A DNA stretch of 22,762 nucleotides from Eggerthellaceae bacterium (lineage in GTDB: Bacteria > Actinomycetota > Coriobacteriia > Coriobacteriales > Eggerthellaceae): the NCBI GenBank assembly GCA_900754955.1, contig CAAEEV010000087.1, positions 1-22,762 on the forward strand, written 5' to 3'. Within the stretch, counting starts at the first letter, position 1. The number at the start of each line of letters is the position of its first letter. The notes beneath the pieces were generated by a model. That model ran no database searches and was not told the DNA's origin. It saw only the letters and a list, made by a program, of their open reading frames with translations. The position numbers and the translations under genes were made by a program. Shown in pieces: positions 1-22,569 of this stretch.

Positions 1-108
1 AAGCCGCCTTCGCGCGGTGCCGAGCCCTGCACAAGGGGCAAGGTCGGGCGCCACGGCGCCCCGCAGCGTCGGGTAGGTGCGTCGGCGCTCACGCACCGAC
101 GCACCTAC
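1..108 (-). repeat. palindromic repeat element, copy C (truncated by window edge)
   Basis: This is the third member of a dispersed palindromic family whose full copies lie at 10423-10576 and 19616-19769. Positions 1-72 align without gaps to 19665-19736; shared blocks include AAGCCGCCTT, CAAGGGGCAA, TCGGGCGCC and CGCAGCGTCG. The end next to ribBA is a perfect 13-bp hairpin (arms 73-85 and 96-108). Its arm sequence differs from that of the other copies, yet pairing is kept. The ribBA stop codon (105-107) lies inside the hairpin arm, so the element would form the start of the ribBA 3' UTR. There is no U-tract, so it is not a standard intrinsic terminator. The rest of the element lies outside the window. 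Confidence 0.75.
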
Positions 109-1298
109 AGCAGATGGCCCATTTTGTTCTTCTTCGTCTCCAGATAGCGCGCATCGTATTCCGTGGCGGGAACCTTGATGGGCACGCGCTCGGTGATTTC
201 CAGGCCGAAATCGGAGAGCTGGTAGACCTTGTCGGGGTTGTTCGTGAGCAGGCGCATGGTCTTCACGCCGAGGGCGCGGAGGATCTGCGCACCGATGTAG
301 TACTCGCGCTCGTCGCCCGCGAACCCGAGCGCAAGGTTGGCTTCAAGCGTGTCCATGCCCTGATCCTGCAGCTCATAGGCGCGCAGCTTGTTCACGAGTC
401 CGATGCCGCGGCCCTCCTGGCGCATGTACAGCACGATGCCGCGGCCCTCTTCTTCAACCTGCGCCATCGCGTGCGCGAGCTGATCACCGCAGTCGCAGCG
501 CAGCGAGCCGAACGCGTCGCCCGTGAGGCACTCGGAGTGCACGCGCACGAGCACGTCTTTGCCGTCGCCGATCTCCCCTTTCACGAGCGCCACATGGTGC
601 TCGCCGTTGAGCTTGTTCACGAACGCATGGGCGCGGAAGTTGCCGTACTTGGTGGGCATGCGCGTGTCGGCCACATGCTCCACGAGCACGTCGTGCTTCT
701 TGCGGTAATCCTGCAGGTCTTTGATGGTGATGAACGTGATGCCCCACTTCTGCGCGAGCTCCATGAGCTCGGGCGTGCGCATCATCGTGCCGTCGTCGCG
801 CATGATCTCGCAGCACAGGCCGCACTCGGCAAGCCCCGCGAGCCGCATGAGGTCGACCGTCGCCTCGGTGTGGCCGTTGCGCTCGAGCACGCCGTTCTTC
901 TTCGCCATGAGCGGGAACATGTGGCCAGGGCGGCGGAAATCGCCCGGCTGCGCCGCAGGATCGACGCAGGCGCGCGCCGTCACGCCGCGCTCGGCCGCCG
1001 AGATGCCCGTGGTGGTGCTCACGTGGTCGACCGACACGGTGAACGCCGTCTCGTGGTTGTCGGTGTTGTCCATGACCATCTGCGGAAACTGCAGCTTGCG
1101 GCACAGCTCGATGCTCATCGGCATGCAGATGAGGCCCTTGCCGTGCGCGGCCATGAAGTTCACGTTCTCGGTGGTGGCGAACTCGGCGGCGCAGATGAAG
1201 TCGCCTTCGTTCTCGCGATCGGGGTCGTCGGTGCACAGGATGATCTTGCCTGCGCGCAGATCGGCGATCGCCTCCTCGACGGTGTTGAACTTGAACAC
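105..1298 (-). CDS. ribBA: bifunctional 3,4-dihydroxy-2-butanone-4-phosphate synthase / GTP cyclohydrolase II
   Basis: This 397-residue fusion makes both precursors of the riboflavin ring system in the cytoplasm. The RibB half (about 1-203) converts ribulose 5-phosphate to the four-carbon unit and shows the acidic metal/substrate motif [10 protein letters not shown] (24-33), [10 protein letters not shown] (91-100) and RPGHMFPL...GHTEATVDL. The RibA half (about 208-397) opens GTP and shows the zinc ligands Cys257, Cys268 and Cys270 in SECLTGD...LRCDCGDQL and the [10 protein letters not shown] loop. The start is GTG, chosen because AGGAGG lies just upstream and the reading begins [10 protein letters not shown]. 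The gene is third in the ribD-ribE-ribBA operon, 24 bases after ribE, and should be under the FMN riboswitch. It ends inside a palindromic repeat. Length is usual for the family. Confidence 0.97.
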
Positions 1299-3341: not shown

Positions 3342-3379
3342 CGATGCACGTATGCCGCGCCGCTACAGCAGCGCTTCCA

Positions 3380-3484
3380 CCTTCTTCCATCCAGACTGTA
3401 CTGTCGGCTTCGGAGTTTCACCGAATCGGCCTTGCGGCTCGCGGGCTGTCACCGCCGGTGGGGAATCGCACCCCGCCCTGAAGA
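3380..3484 (-). promoter_or_regulatory. FMN riboswitch (RFN element) upstream of ribD
   Basis: Read on the minus strand, the region shows the conserved RFN blocks in order. They are CTTCAGGGCGGGGTGC, GATTCCCCACCGGCGGT, AGCCCGCGAG, GATTCGGTGAAACTCCG, AAGCCGACAGTACAGTC and TGGATGGAAGAAGG. This matches the FMN aptamer consensus closely. FMN binding is known to repress riboflavin genes. Here the downstream terminator at 3311-3341 suggests control by transcription termination. Confidence 0.97.
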
Positions 3485-3504
3485 TGTATTCGATTACGGT
3501 TGCG

Positions 3505-3533: not shown

Positions 3534-3719
3534 GAACAGACCCGTAAACGACAACGCCCCTGCGCATGGCGTGCGCTGCGCTATCGCATGCCGCGCATTT
3601 TTGGCAGCACACCGCATCATCGCACACCACACCGCTGCAAAGTTCTACGTCACCACACGCTGCACCCTCGCGCCGCGCACCAGCCCAACAGCACACACCA
3701 TGCACTCATGCGGCGAGCG

Positions 3720-3993
3720 CTGCCAACAAACGGCGTTTTTGCCAATTTCCGGAAAAAATTACGTTTGTTGGAAACTTTGAGTCCTCTGACACGCTGCAGC
3801 AAGACGTTCGAGAAGCGAATGAAAGCTTCGGGCAAAAGGCACTGCACCGTTTCACCAGTTCAATACGATAGCGAATTGAGAATATTTCTTTTCTCTGCAC
3901 GCGTGAGGGTCGCCCAGAGACGATTACGAGAGGCAAATGCGCCAACAAACGTAAAAAATGCCACGTTTTGGCAAAAAATCCGTTTGTTGGCAG
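3720..3993. repeat. AT-rich element with 52-bp terminal inverted repeats (MITE-like, unknown)
   Basis: Two 52-base units, 3720-3771 and 3942-3993, are inverted copies of each other with about 40 of 52 positions identical. Each begins CTGCCAACAAACGG from the outside and ends CGTTTGTTGG on the inside, so each unit is itself bounded by a 10-bp inverted repeat (CCAACAAACG/CGTTTGTTGG). The units hold runs of A and T and stand out in GC-rich surroundings. The 170 bases between them have no convincing coding frame. I see no clear target-site duplication. It lies downstream of corA and upstream of the riboflavin promoter. It may be a non-autonomous mobile element or a pair of large operator or structured-RNA sites; the sequence does not decide. 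The rest of the 3534-4176 gap shows no gene. Confidence 0.6.
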
Positions 3994-4043
3994 ATGCCGA
4001 CGGAAGAGAACGCAACTAAGAGACGCTCGAGACCAGGAGCACT

Positions 4044-5150: not shown

Positions 5151-5241
5151 GCACGGCGCCCGGAACATCTGCTGCCAAGCTCTGCAAAATCGGCGTAAAA
5201 GATCGCTACGGGACGGAGCCATCTCCGCCCGGCGCATACGC

Positions 5242-5381
5242 CACCGCCGCTACTCCGGCGCGCACGCATCATCGCCGCCGCCCAGGTCCACATGCGCCAC
5301 CGCCGCCGCCCGGGTGGGCATACATCACCGCCGCTGCTCCGGCGCGCACGCATCATCGCCGCTGCTCCGGCGCGCACGCAC
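5242..5381. repeat. 28-bp GC-rich tandem repeat, five units
   Basis: Five head-to-tail units start at 5242, 5270, 5298, 5326 and 5354, each exactly 28 bases. Units 1, 4 and 5 are nearly identical (CAYCGCCGCTGCTCCGGCGC then GCACGCAY). Units 2 and 3 share the first half and diverge in the second. There are no spacers, so it is not a CRISPR array. The period is not a multiple of three and no gene crosses it, so it is probably non-coding. It lies between the divergent corA and helicase promoters. Apart from this array and the two promoters, the 5116-5507 gap shows no gene. Confidence 0.8.
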
Positions 5382-5421
5382 ATACGGTGCCGCACGCGAC
5401 GAGCGGCAGGCGGCGGCGTGC

Positions 5422-5507: not shown

Positions 5508-5555
5508 ATGACGGTTTCATTCGCATTCCGCCTGTTCAGAGGTGATTTCCGATGA
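5508..5555 (+). CDS. 15-codon leader ORF coupled to the helicase gene
   Basis: ATG at 5508 is preceded by a strong GAGGAGG site at the usual distance and opens a 15-residue frame, MTVSFAFRLFRGDFR. Its TGA (5553-5555) overlaps the helicase ATG (5552-5554) as ATGA. The frame differs from that of the helicase, so it is not a longer start of that protein. The helicase has its own GAGGTGA site inside this ORF. The layout is what is expected for translational coupling; whether the peptide matters or only its translation is unknown. It is too short for homology-based naming. Confidence 0.5.
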   Translation: MTVSFAFRLFRGDFR

Positions 5556-8500
5556 TCACCGAAGCCGATGTCGCCCAAAGGTGCCCCGAGCGCACCATGC
5601 AGCGCGCCCGCCAGATCGCCGAGAAGCCGCGCAACATCGTATCGCCCCAGTGCCGCCTCAGCTACGGGGAGACGAAACTGCTCGCCTTCGTCGCCGCCTC
5701 GAGCGGCTGGACCGACCGCTACCGCGTGCAAGTCGCGCTCGACGAAGATCACGGCGAGGTGCTCGACTTCGCCTGCACGTGCCCCGCGAGCATGCGCACC
5801 GACGGCATGTGCAAGCACGCTGCCGCCCTTGCGCTCGCCTACCTGCGCGAACCTGAGCGCTTCGCGGGGTTCAAGCGCAACCGCGCACCCGAGACGAGCC
5901 CCTCCATCACCGCGTTCATGCATCGCGCCGAGCGCGCCGCGCACGACGACGTTCCCGCAGGATCCGTCCGCATCGACGTAACGCTGTCGTACGGTTTCGA
6001 GAACTGGTCGGCCCGCTTCAAGATCAGAGGCCCGCAGAGCAGCTACGTGATGAAGAGCATCAGCGACTTCGCCGAGGCGTTCGACACGGGCGCCGTCGTG
6101 ACGTACGGCAAGCGCCTCTCGTTCGCGCACACGCTCGGCGCCTTCGACGCGCGCAGCCACCGCCTCGTCTCGTTCATCAGGCGCGCGATCGAGCGTCGCA
6201 GCCAGCAGGACGGAGCCCTCTCCTGGCATACGCGCTCGCGGCGCGCCGCCGTCGGGCGCGCCCTCGACCTGAGCGAAGAGGAGGCCGTCGATCTCGTCGA
6301 CCTCATCGCCGATGCACCGTTCGACCTCGACTGCACCGACGGCAGCATGCCCGCGCACCAGAACGTCACGGTCGTCGACGAGGATCCGCGCGTGCCGCTG
6401 CGCATCGAACGCGAGGAGGACGGCGGCTATCTCATCGAACGCGACGAAGCCATCGTGTTCGCCTGCGCCGCCGATCGCATGATCGTCCTGCGCGACGCGA
6501 CGCTCCACCGCTGCACGCCCTCGTTCGCCCGCGTCGGCGAGTTCCTGCGCAGCGTGTACCGCTCCAACGACGACAGCCTTTTCATCGCCCCCGAGGACGC
6601 ACCGCTGTTCTGCGCGACGGTGCTGCCGCTGCTCGAGGACACCATCGGCGTCGATGCGCCGCCTGAGCTCGAGGCTCTTCGCCCCGTTCCCGGCGAGCTT
6701 ACGTTCTACTTCGATCGCGCCGAGAAAGTCATTTACACGGTGGTGCAGGTGGCCTACGGCGCGCATCGCTTCACGCTCCTCGAGCCGTCGGTGACGCTCG
6801 CGGGAGGCGAGGCGTTCTCCCCCGAGGAAACCGACCGAGACGACGATGCCGTGCCGCTGCGCGACGAGGTGCTCGAGCGGCGCGGCATCGAGCTTGCGCG
6901 CACCTTCTTCGATGCCGACGCCACGCTGTCGCTCGATGACGACGAGGCCGTGGCCGAGCTCTTCCTCGGCGGGCTCGCGCGCTTCCGCGCTCTCGGCACG
7001 GTGTTCACCACACCCGCATTCGACCGCATCGTCTCCTCACGCAAGCCGCGTCTGCAGATCGGCCTCTCCCTCGCCGGCGACCTCGTCGACCTTGACGTGT
7101 CCGCCGACGACCTCGACCCCGCCGACTTGGCGGGCGTGCTCGCGAGCTACCGCAAGCGCAAGCGCTTCCATCGGCTGCGCGACGGGGCGTTTCTCGATCT
7201 CGCCGACATGGACCTCCACGAGCTCTCCCGCATGATGGACGACCTCGGCATCGCAAGCGACGCCCTCGCTGCGGGGCACGTCGAGCTGCCCACCTACCGC
7301 GCGTTCTTCCTCGATCGCGAGTTCTCCGACGCCCGCCGCAGCGCATCGTTCGAAAGCTACGTCAACCGCTTCCGCACCGTGAAGCAAAGCGACTACGAGC
7401 CGCCCGCCGACCTGCAGGGCACGCTGCGCCCCTACCAGCTCGAGGGTTTCCGCTGGCTCTCGGCGCTCACCGACCTCGGCTTCGGCGGCATCCTCGCCGA
7501 CGAGATGGGCCTCGGCAAGTCGATTCAGCTCATCAGCCTGCTGCTCGCACGGCGCGACGAGGCGCGCGACCGGGGCCCGGCGCTCATCACCTGCCCCGCC
7601 TCGCTCGTGTACAACTGGCTCGCCGAGTTTGCCGCCTTCGCACCGAGCCTCACGGTGCGCGCCGTCGAGGGGCCGCCCGCCGAACGTGCGCGCATCCGCG
7701 CCGAGCGCGGCGTCGACGTGTTCGTGGTCTCGTACGACCTCGTGCGCGTCGATGCCGAAGCGTTCGAATCGCGCTCCTACTGGTGCCACGTGATCGACGA
7801 AGCGCAGTACATCAAGAACCACGCCACGCTCACCACGCGCGCCGTGAAGCGCATCCGCTCGGCGCATCGCTTCGCGCTCACGGGCACGCCCATCGAGAAC
7901 CGCCTGTCGGAGATCTGGTCGATCTTCGACTTCCTCATGCCTGGGTTCCTCGGCACCTACGAGCGCTTCCGCAAGCGCTTCGAGCTCGGCATCGTCGGCG
8001 GCGACGAGGAGGCGGCGCACACCCTCCGATCGCTCGTGGAGCCCTTCGTGCTGCGCCGCCTCAAGCGCGACGTGCTGCCCGATCTGCCCGACAAGATCGA
8101 CTCGGTCATCTTCGTGCCGCTCGATGAGGAGCAGCGCCGCCTCTACCTCGCCAACGAGCAGAGCCTGCGCGAGAGCCTCAACCGCCAGAAGAAGAACTCC
8201 GCGAGCCGCACGCCCGACCCCGTCCTCGCGCGCAACCGCATCGAGGTGCTTGCCGAGCTCACGAAGCTGCGCCAGATTGCGCTCGACCCCGCGCTGCTCT
8301 ACGAGAACTACCGCGGAGGAGCCGCGAAAACGCGCGCCATCCTCGACCTCATCGAGCAAACGCGCGCATCGGGCGAGAAGGCGCTCGTGTTCTCCCAGTT
8401 CACAAGCTACCTCGATGAACTCGCCTCCGAGCTTGCCGCGCGGGGCATCGCCTACTACACGATCACGGGATCGACGCCGAAGAAGGAGCGCCTCGAGCGC

Positions 8501-8836
8501 GCCCAGGCGTTCAACGACGACGACGTGCCGGTGTTCCTCGTGTCGCTCAAGGCGGGCGGCACCGGCCTCAACCTCATCGGCGCGTCGGTGGTGATCCACG
8601 CCGATCCGTGGTGGAACGCCGCCGCCGTGAACCAGGCGACCGATCGCGCGCACCGCATCGGGCAGACCGACGTGGTGACGGTGTACAAGATGATCGCGAA
8701 GGGAACCATCGAGGAGCGTATTCTGAGCCTCCAGGAGCGCAAAGCCGCGCTTGCCGACGCCGTGGTGGGCCAAACGGGCGCGGCGGCGCTGTCGAGCCTG
8801 ACGCGGGAAGAGCTCATGGAGCTGCTCGAGGGGTAG
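5552..8836 (+). CDS. SNF2-family DEAD/DEAH-type helicase with SWIM zinc finger
   Basis: This 1094-residue protein has an N-terminal SWIM zinc-finger motif, C75-x-C77-x9-C87-x-H89, followed by a long region of about 530 residues without motifs I recognise. A complete SNF2/RapA-like ATPase core occupies about 630-1090. It includes motif I DEMGLGKS (650-657), motif II DEAQ (749-752), LTGTPIENRLSEIWSIFDFL, and in the C-terminal lobe KALVFSQFTSYLD, GGTGLNLIGA and DRAHRIGQ. Such proteins are DNA- or nucleoprotein-translocating ATPases; bacterial SWIM-SNF2 proteins are common but their targets are mostly undefined. The ATG at 5552 follows GAGGTGA and overlaps the leader ORF stop. The gene stands alone on the plus strand and converges on rnr. 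Confidence 0.93.
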   Translation: MITEADVAQRCPERTMQRARQIAEKPRNIVSPQCRLSYGETKLLAFVAASSGWTDRYRVQVALDEDHGEVLDFACTCPASMRTDGMCKHAAALALAYLREPERFAGFKRNRAPETSPSITAFMHRAERAAHDDVPAGSVRIDVTLSYGFENWSARFKIRGPQSSYVMKSISDFAEAFDTGAVVTYGKRLSFAHTLGAFDARSHRLVSFIRRAIERRSQQDGALSWHTRSRRAAVGRALDLSEEEAVDLVDLIADAPFDLDCTDGSMPAHQNVTVVDEDPRVPLRIEREEDGGYLIERDEAIVFACAADRMIVLRDATLHRCTPSFARVGEFLRSVYRSNDDSLFIAPEDAPLFCATVLPLLEDTIGVDAPPELEALRPVPGELTFYFDRAEKVIYTVVQVAYGAHRFTLLEPSVTLAGGEAFSPEETDRDDDAVPLRDEVLERRGIELARTFFDADATLSLDDDEAVAELFLGGLARFRALGTVFTTPAFDRIVSSRKPRLQIGLSLAGDLVDLDVSADDLDPADLAGVLASYRKRKRFHRLRDGAFLDLADMDLHELSRMMDDLGIASDALAAGHVELPTYRAFFLDREFSDARRSASFESYVNRFRTVKQSDYEPPADLQGTLRPYQLEGFRWLSALTDLGFGGILADEMGLGKSIQLISLLLARRDEARDRGPALITCPASLVYNWLAEFAAFAPSLTVRAVEGPPAERARIRAERGVDVFVVSYDLVRVDAEAFESRSYWCHVIDEAQYIKNHATLTTRAVKRIRSAHRFALTGTPIENRLSEIWSIFDFLMPGFLGTYERFRKRFELGIVGGDEEAAHTLRSLVEPFVLRRLKRDVLPDLPDKIDSVIFVPLDEEQRRLYLANEQSLRESLNRQKKNSASRTPDPVLARNRIEVLAELTKLRQIALDPALLYENYRGGAAKTRAILDLIEQTRASGEKALVFSQFTSYLDELASELAARGIAYYTITGSTPKKERLERAQAFNDDDVPVFLVSLKAGGTGLNLIGASVVIHADPWWNAAAVNQATDRAHRIGQTDVVTVYKMIAKGTIEERILSLQERKAALADAVVGQTGAAALSSLTREELMELLEG

Positions 8837-8981: not shown

Positions 8982-11252
8982 CTACGGGCGCGACCCGCGC
9001 GCCAGGGAGAACGCAAGCGTGCCCGCCTGCGCGTCGGCGGCGCGCAGCGTCACGGCGATGCGCTGGCCGAGCCTCCAGCGACGGCCCGTCTCCTCCCCCG
9101 TGAGCGCATGGCGCTCGGCATCGAAGGCGAAGTACTCGTCGCCAAGCGCGCGCACGGGAAGGAAGCCCTCCGCCGTGCATTCGAGCCGCACGAACAGACC
9201 GCCCTGGGCAACGCCCGACACCACACCCGAGAACGAGGCGCCGACGTACTGCTCAAGGTACTCGATCATCTTGAGCTCCTGCGACTCCCGTGCTGCATCG
9301 TCGGCCACGCGCTCCGCATCGGACGCGTGCTCAGCGATCCACGGCAACGCGGCAACCTCCTGGTCGAACAGCTGCGGGCGCCGCGTGAGGCACGCGTGGA
9401 GCATGCGGTGCACCACGAGGTCGGGATAGCGGCGAATGGGGCTCGTGAAATGGCAGTATGCAGCCGAAGCAAGCCCGTAGTGCTCCTCACGCGCGGGGCG
9501 GTACACCGCGCGCTTCATCGCGCGCAGCAGCAGCGATGAGACGAGTTCCCCCTCCGCCCGCTTGCGGCTCGCCGCAAGCGCTTCCTGGATCGCCGCCGCC
9601 TCGCCGCGCGCAAGGCGCACGCCGAGCTCGTCGGTGAACCACGGGAATTCCTCAAGCACGGGAACGAGACTTGCGAGCGAAGAAGCGGACGGGCGCTCGT
9701 GCACGCGGAACACGCACGGCCACTCCCGCGCGCACAACGCGCGCGCCACCGCCTCGTTCGCGAGGATCATCGCCTGCTCGACAAGGCGCGTCGCGGCGTT
9801 CTTCTCGCGCAGCGTGATCTCGACCGCCCGCCCCTCGTCGTCGAGACGCACCTTCGCCTCGGGTACGGAGAAGTCGATCGCGCCGCAGCGCGTCCGGATG
9901 CCCTCGCGCAGCTCGCCGAGGCGCGCGAGCGTGCGCACGCGCGACGCCACGTCCGCGGCTGCGTCGGCATCGGAAGCGCGCTCGATGAGGCGCTGCGCCT
10001 CCCCGTAGGACAGGCGCGCGTGCGAGCGGATGAGCGCGGGGTAGATCTCGTAGCGCACGAGACGCCCACGCGCATCGAGAAAGAGATCGACCGTCAGCGT
10101 GCGCCGCTCCTCACCGGGACGCAGCGAACAGAGATCCTCGGACAGCTCGGGCGGCAGCATGGGAATCACACGATCGACGAGGTACACGCTCGTAGCGCGA
10201 CGGCGCGCGTCGAAGTCGATCGACGAGTTCCACGGGACGTAGTGCGCCACATCGGCGATGTGCACGCCAAGCCGCCACCGCGCCTCCCCCGCCCCCTCCC
10301 AGCCCTCGCCCGAAAGCGGACGGATGGAGGAAGCCGCAACACCAAGAGAGCCACCAGTCGTTCGTAACGTCAGCGAGGCGCCGTCTGGTGCGGGAGAATC
10401 AGTGGAATCGCCGGTCGAACCCAAGTCAGCGAGGGTTTCCCTGGTGCCCGAGGTTCGCGGGATCGCGGGGGCGAAGCCTACTTCGGTAGGCGAGCCCCCG
10501 GGATCACGCGAAGATCGGGTGCCAGGGGAAGCCGCAACGTCGGCAGGTTCCGACGGTGCGTCAGCACCGACGGAACAAATAGACAGCGCATCATCAAAGT
10601 CGCGCGCGTCTTCGGGGTCGATCGTGAACACGAAGCGGTCGCGCAGGTCGCGGTAGCCCTCTGCAAGCGCACCTGCCGCATCGAGCTGCGCGGAAGCCGC
10701 CTCTTCGAGGGCTGAAGGCGAGAACGACGTCTCAAGCTTGTGGCGCGCGATCACCACCTCGACGCCCGCCCGTGCATCAGCACCCTCGGCAAGCACCTCC
10801 TCAACCACACCCGTGGCCGCTGAGGTGCGCGTGGGATACTCCACGATGCGCACGCGCACGAGCGCGCCGTCGGGCACCTGAGGCGCATCGGCGCGCCGCG
10901 TGAAGATGTCGTACGGGATGCGCGGATCTTCGGGAACCACCACGCCGAACGGTTCAGCCTCTTCGTAGCGCCCGATGAGCACCTCGTGCGCGCGCTCAAC
11001 CACACGCACGACGCGCGCGGCGGGATTTCCGTTCGAGCCGCGCCCGGCAGCCGTGCGCGCACCGCGGCGCGCGTCTACGATCGGCGCCACTTCCACCACG
11101 TCGCCGTCGAACGCGCCGCCGAGCGCCTTACGCGGAATGAAGAACGCCCCCTCCGACGTCTGAACGAAGCCAAACCCCTCAGTGCGCACCACGAGCACGC
11201 CGCGCGGGTGCGAGCGGGGTTTGCGGCGGGTATGGGCACGCGAACGCGACAC
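8982..11252 (-). CDS. rnr: ribonuclease R (RNB-domain 3'-5' exoribonuclease) with large in-frame insertion
   Basis: This processive exoribonuclease for structured RNA has 756 residues. N-terminal OB/cold-shock-like segments (GVLVVRTEGFGFVQ, GVVVPEDPRIPYDIF) precede the RNB catalytic domain. The acidic metal site is D212-PEDARDFDD (D218, D220, D221), and the C-terminal S1 domain spans about 670-756. Normally the DARDFDDA motif is followed within about ten residues by the WRLGVHIADVAHYV strand. Here that strand begins at residue 326, leaving about 100 extra residues (about 225-324) rich in Gly, Ser, Thr, Pro and Ala. DNA for residues 226-299 is a palindromic repeat found elsewhere in the window. 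The frame stays open and all catalytic residues remain, so the protein is probably active with a disordered surface loop (inference). The start is GTG, 25 bases after the protease gene. It is the last gene of an ftsE-ftsX-S41-rnr cluster. Confidence 0.94.
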   Translation of the reverse strand: MSRSRAHTRRKPRSHPRGVLVVRTEGFGFVQTSEGAFFIPRKALGGAFDGDVVEVAPIVDARRGARTAAGRGSNGNPAARVVRVVERAHEVLIGRYEEAEPFGVVVPEDPRIPYDIFTRRADAPQVPDGALVRVRIVEYPTRTSAATGVVEEVLAEGADARAGVEVVIARHKLETSFSPSALEEAASAQLDAAGALAEGYRDLRDRFVFTIDPEDARDFDDALSICSVGADAPSEPADVAASPGTRSSRDPGGSPTEVGFAPAIPRTSGTRETLADLGSTGDSTDSPAPDGASLTLRTTGGSLGVAASSIRPLSGEGWEGAGEARWRLGVHIADVAHYVPWNSSIDFDARRRATSVYLVDRVIPMLPPELSEDLCSLRPGEERRTLTVDLFLDARGRLVRYEIYPALIRSHARLSYGEAQRLIERASDADAAADVASRVRTLARLGELREGIRTRCGAIDFSVPEAKVRLDDEGRAVEITLREKNAATRLVEQAMILANEAVARALCAREWPCVFRVHERPSASSLASLVPVLEEFPWFTDELGVRLARGEAAAIQEALAASRKRAEGELVSSLLLRAMKRAVYRPAREEHYGLASAAYCHFTSPIRRYPDLVVHRMLHACLTRRPQLFDQEVAALPWIAEHASDAERVADDAARESQELKMIEYLEQYVGASFSGVVSGVAQGGLFVRLECTAEGFLPVRALGDEYFAFDAERHALTGEETGRRWRLGQRIAVTLRAADAQAGTLAFSLARGSRP
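10369..10576 (-). repeat. palindromic repeat element, copy B, embedded in rnr
   Basis: The core at 10423-10576 is 154 bases, the same length as copy A, and like it runs from AAGTCAGCGAG to a terminal hairpin. That hairpin (10547-10559 with 10564-10576) has a GTCA loop and 12 of 13 pairs. The body is a long imperfect palindrome (10434-10533) centred on GCCTAC-TTCG-GTAGGC at 10476-10491, flanked by CGGGGGC/GCCCCCG. A partial extra start (GTCAGCGAGG...CTGGTGC) is at 10369-10396. The element is translated as rnr residues 226-299. Confidence 0.8.
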
Positions 11253-18427: not shown

Positions 18428-19531
18428 CTAGCCCTCCGTGCTCGTGTGCCACTTGTGGTAGCCGATGACGAACTCCTCGAGGTCGCCGTCGAGCACGGCA
18501 TCCACGTTGCCCGTCTCGACACCGCTGCGCAGATCCTTCACGAGCTGATAGGGATAGAGCACGTAGTTGCGGATCTGCGAGCCGAAGGAATTCTCCATGC
18601 GCTCGCCGCGCAGCGCGTCGATCTCCTCCTGACGCTTGCGCTCCTCGAGCTCGTAGAGTTTGGCGCGCAGCACGCGGAAGGCGGCTTCCTTGTTCTGCAG
18701 CTGGCTCTTCTCGTTCTGGCACGTGACCACGATGCCCGTGGGCTCGTGGGTGAGGCGCACGGCCGAGTCGGTGGTGTTCACGCACTGGCCGCCCGGACCG
18801 CTCGAGCGGTACACGTCGACGCGCACGTCGGCGGGGTTGAGGTTCACCTCGATATCGTCGGGCAGAACGGGCAGCACCTCGACGCTCGCGAATGTGGTGT
18901 GACGGCGCTTCTTGTCGTCGGTGGGGCTGATGCGCACGAGGCGGTGCACCCCGATCTCGCTGCGCAGCATGCCGTAGGCGTTGCGCCCCTCGATCTGGAT
19001 GGTGGCCTTGTCGAGGCCGACGGCGTCGGTGCCGGGCACCACGTCGAGGTCGATCACCTTCCAACCCTTCGACTCGGCGTAGCGCGTGTACATGCGCCAG
19101 AGCATCTCGGTCCAGTCCTGCGCCTCGAGGCCGCCCTGGCCGGGGTTCACCGTGAGGATGGCGTCACCGGCGTCGAACTGCCCCGAGAACCACGATGCGA
19201 TCTCGAGCGCCTCGAGCTTGCGCGCGAGCTCGGCGGTCTGCGCGGCGTACTCCTCAGCGAACGACGCGTCCTCGGCCGCCAGTTCGAAGGCGGCGCGCGC
19301 GTCCTCGAGGCAGCTCACCGCCGCGTCGTACTCGGCGATGGTGTCGCGCAGGTTCGACGCCTGTTTCGACACCGCCTGCGCATGGGCCGCGTCGTTCCAA
19401 AAATCAGGCGACGCGATCTCGGCGTCGAGCTTTTCAAGCTCGGCCGTCTTGTCGTCAATGTGGAGGAACGCCCGCGCGTCGTCCACGCGCTGCGCGAGCT
19501 CCTCCAGTTCTTTTTCTTCTCTCTCAGTCAT
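18428..19531 (-). CDS. prfB: peptide chain release factor 2 (SPT tripeptide, no frameshift site)
   Basis: RF2 (367 aa) reads UGA and UAA stop codons on the ribosome and triggers peptide release. The GGQ catalytic motif is at 247-249 (SSGPGGQCVNTTDSAVRLTH). The N-terminal coiled part (1-110) and the codon-recognition domain align well with the family. The stop-codon tripeptide, Ser-Pro-Phe in classical RF2, reads S202-P-T204 (RLVRISPTDDKKRRHTTFASV). The programmed +1 frameshift found near codon 26 in E. coli prfB is absent: the frame is continuous across the equivalent LAQRVDDARAFLHID segment. The ATG has only a weak GAGAG site. A promoter lies at 19588-19616 and a terminator follows the gene. 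Confidence 0.96.
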   Translation of the reverse strand: MTEREEKELEELAQRVDDARAFLHIDDKTAELEKLDAEIASPDFWNDAAHAQAVSKQASNLRDTIAEYDAAVSCLEDARAAFELAAEDASFAEEYAAQTAELARKLEALEIASWFSGQFDAGDAILTVNPGQGGLEAQDWTEMLWRMYTRYAESKGWKVIDLDVVPGTDAVGLDKATIQIEGRNAYGMLRSEIGVHRLVRISPTDDKKRRHTTFASVEVLPVLPDDIEVNLNPADVRVDVYRSSGPGGQCVNTTDSAVRLTHEPTGIVVTCQNEKSQLQNKEAAFRVLRAKLYELEERKRQEEIDALRGERMENSFGSQIRNYVLYPYQLVKDLRSGVETGNVDAVLDGDLEEFVIGYHKWHTSTEG

Positions 19532-19616: not shown

Positions 19617-19769
19617 AGTCAGCGAGAGGCGCTGCGGCGCCCGAGGTTGCCCCGCCTTGAGGCCAAGCCGCCTTTGTGCGGCGCTGCGCCTCAAACAAGG
19701 GGCAAGATCGGGCGCCGCAGCGCTTCGCAGCGTCGACAGGTTCCGCGTTTGCGTCAGCAAACGCGGAAC
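19616..19769 (-). repeat. palindromic repeat element, copy A, between secA and prfB
   Basis: This full-length 154-base copy fills nearly the whole secA-prfB gap. A 28-position stem (19626-19653 with 19699-19726) has 25 Watson-Crick pairs, one G-T and two mismatches. The inner part (about 19655-19698) forms a weaker palindrome. The end next to secA is a perfect 13-bp hairpin with a GTCA loop (19740-19752 with 19757-19769), four bases after the secA stop codon. There is no T-tract. Confidence 0.8.
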
Positions 19770-19773
19770 GAAA

Positions 19774-22569
<2,796 letters not shown>

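Follow-up and report, generated by a model that had tools for sequence, protein, structure and literature searches.

A palindromic element in the RNase R gene of an Eggerthellaceae bacterium probably belongs to an unrecognised Coriobacteriia family of short mobile palindromes

The gene for RNase R (rnr) of an Eggerthellaceae bacterium carries, within its reading frame, a copy of a long palindromic element. We analysed the 22,762 nucleotides of contig CAAEEV010000087.1 that hold this gene (assembly GCA_900754955.1, positions 1 to 22,762; hereafter the window). Further copies of the element lie between genes of the same window. A domain search of the rnr product finds RNB, CSD2, OB_RNB and S1. 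The spacing from DARDFDDA to WRLGVHIAD is 103 residues, which bears out the original prediction, made from the letters of the window, of about 100 extra codons between the acidic motif and WRLGVHIADV. In relatives, the length from DDA to the next strand ranges from 9 to 110 residues, and many have 9-15 (60 of 92 rnr loci parsed). The features of the insert are listed below; R1 is a covariance model of the element core.

8982..11252, minus strand: rnr (RNase R, 756 aa), frame open across the insert
10411..10576, plus strand: full element copy in rnr; core placed by R1, left end CCGGT by eye against 93 copies, right end by a hairpin scan
10425..10542, plus strand: core of this copy, with GTCAGCGAG, a long stem with an internal purine loop, an apical stem-loop and GCAACGTCG
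10547..10576, plus strand: second hairpin of the copy, GTTCCG...CGGAAC; the other strand codes CSVGADAPSEP of RNase R
10354..10396, plus strand: partial second copy, 5' end only; the other strand codes SLTLRTTGG of RNase R
10329..10340, plus strand: outer 12-bp direct repeat GGAAGCCGCAAC, a perfect repeat
10527..10538, plus strand: inner copy of the same 12-bp direct repeat, GGAAGCCGCAAC; it lies at the stem foot, 198 bp away from the outer copy

The frame had been predicted to be kept and the catalytic residues to remain. Both hold: the open reading frame (ORF) spans 756 aa, and D212, D218, D220 and D221, as well as W326, are invariant in a 45-sequence alignment. The predicted partial second start at 10369 is a 28-nt direct repeat of the element's left end, present at 10369 and 10425 (71% identical). 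We define the partial copy by the repeat at 10369-10396 and by the stretch to its left, matched by eye to the flank of locus L118. The plus strand of the insert region folds at -113 kcal/mol (z -9.4), and none of 200 shuffles is equally stable. The core retains 18 of its 19 outer pairs despite coding. Its conserved strand is antisense to rnr.

R1 was built from an alignment of 31 cores (A1). Since A1 includes the rnr and secA copies of the window, their R1 scores are by construction; the match at 1-71 and the rnr copies from other species are independent of the training. R1 E-values are rough, owing to a short calibration. In the window, R1 matches the rnr core at 10425-10542 on the plus strand (85.2 bits, E 3e-19), 19618-19735 (131.5 bits) and 1-71 (46 bits, incomplete because the window ends there). 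Thus the insert is coded by a palindrome that is intergenic elsewhere, as had been claimed, and the element can be refined to 10411-10576.

A unit of the element is about 166-170 bp long. On the left it begins with a CAGGT-like motif, which is followed by the core (about 118 nt), a few further nucleotides and a second hairpin. The arms of the core differ strongly from copy to copy, yet they are complementary within each copy. Over the 31 aligned copies, 93.3% of 1261 cells are paired, and 31 of 41 pairs have changed on both sides. The covariation score is 0.556, compared to 0.185 when shuffled and at most 0.115 in slid controls. A purine-purine internal loop is conserved across copies. The second hairpin has stems of mostly 9-15 bp and loops that are mostly GNNA; GTTCCG is its commonest start (first six bases, 24 of the 86 hairpins found). 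We rejected the idea that the conserved strand has a promoter of its own: column frequencies over the 70 nt upstream of the core (92 copies) show no promoter-like motif conserved beyond the CAGGT-like end. By eye, no U-run was seen after the second hairpin.

The fold of the core has a polarity. On the strand beginning GTCAGCGAG, outer-stem wobbles are G.T in 172 cells and A.C in 17 (93 distinct copies). Tandem U.G/G.U at two positions accounts for 117 of the 172 G.T cells (these positions wobble in 60 and 57 of the 93 copies); elsewhere the counts are 55 G.T and 16 A.C. Of 88 intergenic copies, 84 fold more stably on the plus strand. Wobbles in the second hairpin are unbiased (22 vs 19). Because of the G.T excess, the stabler plus-strand fold and the kept purine loop, the selected molecule has to be a single strand of that polarity. 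Hence what is conserved in the core is the single-stranded fold of one particular strand, as either RNA or single-stranded DNA (ssDNA). The original prediction had the element itself right and missed the antisense conserved strand, the second hairpin and the placement mostly behind stop codons.

To determine this placement, genes around a set of mostly best-scoring copies were called by codon usage; the caller was trained on the window genes and recovers them. The right-hand neighbor is antisense to the conserved strand in 81 of the 84 intergenic copies with a called neighbor. For 56 of these 81 copies the distance to the neighbor's stop codon is 28-43 nt, typically about 35 nt, and the second hairpin fills the gap between stop codon and core. 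In the full list for genome G063 the orientation rule is kept by 34 of the 36 copies with a called right-hand neighbor (rnr copy included). The intergenic copies of the window and their neighbors are:

19618..19769, plus strand: intergenic copy in the secA-prfB spacer, with its core at 19618-19735 and its second hairpin at 19740-19769; 4 nt separate its end from the secA stop
1..108, plus strand: intergenic copy, truncated where the window begins; by eye, its second hairpin spans 73-108 and overlaps the ribBA stop
19774..22569, minus strand: secA, stop codon abutted by the intergenic copy
18428..19531, minus strand: prfB, downstream of the intergenic copy
105..1298, minus strand: ribBA, stop codon abutted by the truncated copy

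The copy in the secA-prfB spacer folds at -114 kcal/mol (z -10.7). R1 matches one of 30 secA-prfB loci (L286); the other copies at this junction are those of the window and, judged from their flanks, of L112 and L120. Several loci are without the element, such as L287 with a few nucleotides between stop and start. The unit is wholly present or wholly absent, second hairpin included. Element presence differs between species at orthologous sites. The spacer of L284 (genome G002) contains a different palindrome of about 150 bp (by eye); therefore the junction accepts more than one palindrome family.

Unrelated housekeeping genes carry in-frame copies with their domains intact. Copies lie in rnr, recQ and tsaB-rimI-tsaD of G063 and in priA, hisZ-hisG and hypF of G030. 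Pfam and NCBIfam confirm the identities of these six hosts and locate the inserts between domains or at a domain edge or loop. The proposed resemblance to Rickettsia palindromic elements is strengthened by the five genes besides rnr. Core length is a multiple of three in 7 of 10 in-gene copies vs 20 of 88 intergenic copies. The frame most used in genes is open in 86% of intergenic cores, compared to 44% of mononucleotide shuffles. Outer-stem pairing is 92.6% in genes and 95.2% in the intergenic comparison set. RecQ, hisZ-hisG and hypF share the peptide DAA..CGSKPSS.TEV.F.GLSPQS.A..SLTLRTT, which is partly found in priA; the rnr units of the window and of G063 end in another frame. Among in-gene copies the peptides vary in reading frame and the fold is kept.

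Element-coded peptides were also sought in homologous proteins. Listed homologs of RecQ, PriA and RNase R (120 each, 360 in total) were compared to 98 element copies by tblastn (E 1e-6, low-complexity and composition corrections off). Element-coded peptides occur in 47 of the 360 proteins, and in none with three shuffled sets. Of the listed RecQ homologs, 24 contain the minus reading of the element and 14 the plus reading; the count is 7 of 120 for PriA and 2 of 120 for RNase R. With the 88 intergenic copies alone as target, 15 proteins match: nine RecQ (three minus, six plus) and six PriA. Zinc-loop inserts from the opposite element strand (VVRNVSE..AEDCGESPTKR) are found in RecQ P0246-P0282 and others (14 of 120). 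The RecQ proteins P0330, P0303 and P0302 (664, 711 and 758 aa) have 0, 1 and 2 units, differ by 47-residue (141-bp) steps and are 97.6-99.0% identical where aligned. The second unit of P0302 is nearly that of the window rnr, and P0253 has retained just the two ends. Source names include Gordonibacter (RecQ) and unclassified Eggerthella (PriA).

For RNase R, 120 homologs were listed out of 7743 matches. P0001 (756 aa, 97% identical) has the insert. P0002 (690 aa, also 97% identical) lacks exactly 66 residues (198 bp), and other Adlercreutzia-like RNase R proteins have a short loop. The 66-codon gap fits between the two 12-bp repeats. Because P0002 retains the residues coded by the second hairpin, a deletion between the repeats appears more likely than an empty site. 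The original prediction saw the copy and the partial start, as we do; it did not see that one is full and the other partial, nor that P0002 is more probably a deletion derivative than an empty site. Relatives do not share a conserved amino-acid insert at this site; the insert is related in nucleotides and fold to the intergenic copies. Intact insert-bearing homologs recur in other species, which makes a sequencing artefact unlikely.

The element core is found within rnr in 5 of 89 sources (window, G116, G113, G063, G032), antisense to rnr in all five. R1 matches the copies of the four other genomes at E 1e-16 to 2e-12, and none of them is in the training set. The carriers are scattered over a 64-sequence tree, which implies repeated insertion or many losses. 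Weak R1 matches in the rnr loci L229 and L259 lie outside the insert and were discarded. The same RNase R loop holds other palindromes in L083, L084 and L244, either GTCCACTGGAC-centred or GGAAGCCCC...GGGGCTTCC. In L257 (G039), the rnr insert is the second hairpin of the element together with a CHPERSGEAAESKDL-coding stretch, which we take to be the translation of a widespread repeat.

In an AlphaFold model of the window RNase R (45 sequences), residues 233-308 have a confidence score (pLDDT) below 50, and strands are modelled on both sides. The model weakly suggests that the insert is a disordered loop. Most likely, the insert is a translated, neutral and disordered loop.

The element is widespread. 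A blastn search with the intergenic copy finds matches in 69 of 138 Eggerthellaceae genomes and R1 in 104 of 138 (the family scan scored at most 26 candidates per genome). A class-wide R1 scan yields matches at E <=1e-5 in 108 of 296 genomes. R1-positive genomes outside the 138 family genomes number 50, and 40 of these have E <1e-10. Copy number per genome ranges from one to tens: single-genome R1 searches return 18 matches for G001, and 73, 31 and 41 rows for G030, G116 and G063, where the rows include some opposite-strand shadows. The closest named relative, L001, belongs to Actinomycetota. Some copies in G116 form head-to-tail pairs 136-166 bp apart (C24:16858/17024, C92:37400/37565, C86:57139/57275). 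Rfam contains nothing above the gathering score, and microRNA, snoRNA and riboswitch matches lie far below it. In open-licence PubMed Central (PMC) papers no such repeat was found described for this group. This agrees with the statement in the original prediction that no family is known here.

To explain the rnr insert, we propose that it probably belongs to a family of short mobile palindromes that has gone unrecognised in Coriobacteriia and works like Rickettsia palindromic elements. A trans-acting enzyme would recognise the element in the form of a folded single strand (ssDNA or RNA), and in this form the element would move or be copied. Insertions would survive where the gene is unbroken, either behind its stop codon or, in frame, within a flexible loop. 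The RNase R loop after the catalytic aspartates would be one such tolerant site. Where short direct repeats flank the palindrome, deletion between them may later remove large pieces in frame (P0002, and perhaps RecQ P0253 and P0330). A more far-reaching version, which we put forward tentatively, is a class-wide selfish folded strand (RNA or ssDNA) with a dedicated insertion mechanism that reads gene 3' ends and that may time and again seed new peptide segments in the core enzymes RNase R, RecQ, PriA, HypF, HisZG and TsaB-RimI-TsaD.

Several points weigh against a mobile palindrome. Neither transposition nor a partner enzyme came to light: Y1_Tnp matches 71 and RVT_1 30 of the 138 genomes, and neither matches in the element-rich G006, G008 and G030. 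Given this distribution, we rejected both a Y1 transposase and a reverse transcriptase as the partner used throughout. A target-site duplication could not be established; the 12-bp direct repeat of rnr lies partly inside the element. Strict orientation and spacing exceed what plain mobility predicts and would fit a host function too. The orientation rule itself is not absolute: 2 of the 36 G063 copies break it, and among RecQ relatives both strands of the element are read. Outside the family, 10 of the 50 R1-positive genomes have a best E >1e-10.

The evidence from genes has limits as well. Only a minority of copies lie within genes. They make up 3 of the 41 G063 rows, 3 of 21 lower-scoring G030 copies, 0 of 23 further G116 copies and, with the window-trained caller, 0 of the 88 best-scoring copies gathered regardless of rnr. 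A codon-score test flagged none of the G063 copies in recQ, tsaB-rimI-tsaD and rnr, which were seen via open frames. Carriers of the core in rnr are few (5 of 89 sources), and 32 of the 92 rnr loci misfit the loop pattern and were left out of the length count. With intergenic copies alone no RNase R protein matched, and most RecQ tblastn matches are to the copies in recQ or hypF themselves. An earlier RecQ regular-expression count, superseded by tblastn, left 85 of 120 rows unclassified. For P0002, deletion and prior absence were weighed on protein sequences alone. We infer the translation of the insert solely from open frames. Confidence in the AlphaFold model is no more than moderate (mean pLDDT 64.4, pTM 0.53).

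Alternatively, the element could be a cis-acting 3' untranslated region or an antisense RNA with a host role (3'-end protection, processing or termination), and the in-gene copies could be by-products. We regard this as possible, if on the unlikely side. The stop-codon spacing of the 56 of 81 copies would suit such a role, and so would RNA-like features, namely the tandem U.G/G.U, the mostly GNNA loops of the second hairpin and the purine internal loop. Relative to the adjacent gene, however, the conserved strand is the antisense one, so that the sense mRNA carries the weaker fold. There is neither a promoter-like motif upstream of the 92 copies nor a visible U-run after the second hairpin. 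Furthermore, presence varies between species at secA-prfB, and the element also sits within coding genes.

Arm complementarity could also result from template switching or gene conversion (palindrome correction) instead of selection on a folded strand, which we consider improbable. Passages of PMC6649704 propose template switching for coding palindromes of nematomorph mitochondria. Arms that diverge between copies yet match each other are what such a process would leave. However, correction alone would not make G.T outnumber A.C tenfold on one strand, nor would it conserve a mismatched purine loop and the flanks. Part of the G.T excess is inherited, given that 117 of the 172 cells fall at two positions; at the other positions the counts are 55 to 16.

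A REPIN- or PATE-like element moved by RAYT or an IS200/IS605 Y1 transposase has slimmer prospects still. One-strand hairpin polarity and a fixed orientation fit HUH-type ssDNA transposition, and Y1_Tnp is present in about half of the genomes (71 of 138). In contrast to what RAYT mobilisation requires, the many-copy genomes G006, G008, G028, G029 and G030 have no Y1_Tnp match, although a lost or distant transposase could escape the search. The second hairpin is also without the stem length or tail reported for CGTC REPs. Finally, an ordinary lineage-specific protein segment that resembles the element by chance would fit the variable loop length among the relatives parsed, but it is effectively refuted by the R1 matches to non-training rnr copies and by peptides whose reading frames differ while the fold is kept.

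Our preferred reading, a family of mobile palindromes, can be compared to known systems. Rickettsia palindromic elements are described, in passages of PMC10969869 and PMC2229807, as multi-copy palindromes of 105-150 bp that lie in frame in unrelated genes whose products are apparently kept (Ogata et al. 2000, 2002). By this published description our element is alike: a long, multi-copy palindromic stem-loop, in frame in unrelated genes. It differs in its Coriobacteriia host, its second hairpin and its strand-polar covarying fold. It also lies mostly behind stop codons, with more than one reading frame and both orientations open.

ERIC and YPAL/RU-2 measure about 127-168 bp, lie at times at 3' ends and are rarely intragenic with in-frame fusions; ERIC reportedly affects mRNA in a way that depends on its orientation (passages of PMC2229807 and PMC10969869). 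As far as these passages go, the element resembles them in size, 3'-end placement and occasional in-frame intragenic copies. Unlike in ERIC and YPAL, the element arms are not common to copies, the host group is different and no TA-bounded ends are established.

GTAG/CGTC REPs, as outlined in parts of PMC3733652, are 20-40 bp long and near or overlapping stop codons, with some intragenic units. CGTC stems are 8-9 bp and start with A/T pairs; a 4-5 nt loop and a CCA tail complete the definition, and there is no known transposase. With these REPs, to the extent described there, the element shares hairpins near stop codons, some intragenic units and CGTC beside the hairpin. Unlike CGTC REPs, it has a 118-nt core and a second stem of mostly 9-15 bp, and it departs from the CGTC stem and tail definition. 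Nor is it a miniature inverted-repeat transposable element bounded by inverted repeats: no terminal inverted repeats are common to copies, and the CAGGT-like left and CGGAAC right ends are not inverted repeats of each other.

In integron attC sites, structure is conserved without sequence, the bottom strand is folded, and sites lie right after stop codons; they carry GTTRRRY core sites and recombine through IntI. The element is analogous in its fold conserved over sequence, its folded strand and its place behind stop codons. Unlike attC sites, the copies at the junctions viewed stand behind secA and ribBA, which are housekeeping genes and not cassettes; no integrase search was made.

The window has other features of note. 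A flavin mononucleotide riboswitch (RF00050, 116.8 bits) lies at 3375-3489 on the minus strand, ahead of riboflavin genes. A 41-nt inverted repeat with a TTTGCCAACAAACGG-like motif (3705-3745 and 3968-4008) has no R1 match and lies in the spacer before an ORF that is presumably CorA-like. Tandem repeats of 28 bp (5234-5396) lie upstream of the long ORF 5552-8836, which we take to be an SNF2-like helicase.

Rickettsia is the best-known case of palindromes entering genes in frame; among other small repeats this is rarer, according to passages of PMC10969869 and PMC2229807. With the element family, such palindromes are seen in a different phylum, among relatives of Eggerthella and Adlercreutzia from the human gut. 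RNase R, an enzyme for structured RNA, is itself a recurrent host of a structured element. A family present in 104 of 138 genomes, and placed for the most part at the 3' ends of genes in the copies examined, matters for annotation and strain typing and possibly for mRNA decay. Insertions are numerous and natural variants have or lack the element, which makes the origin of protein segments from selfish palindromes directly testable.

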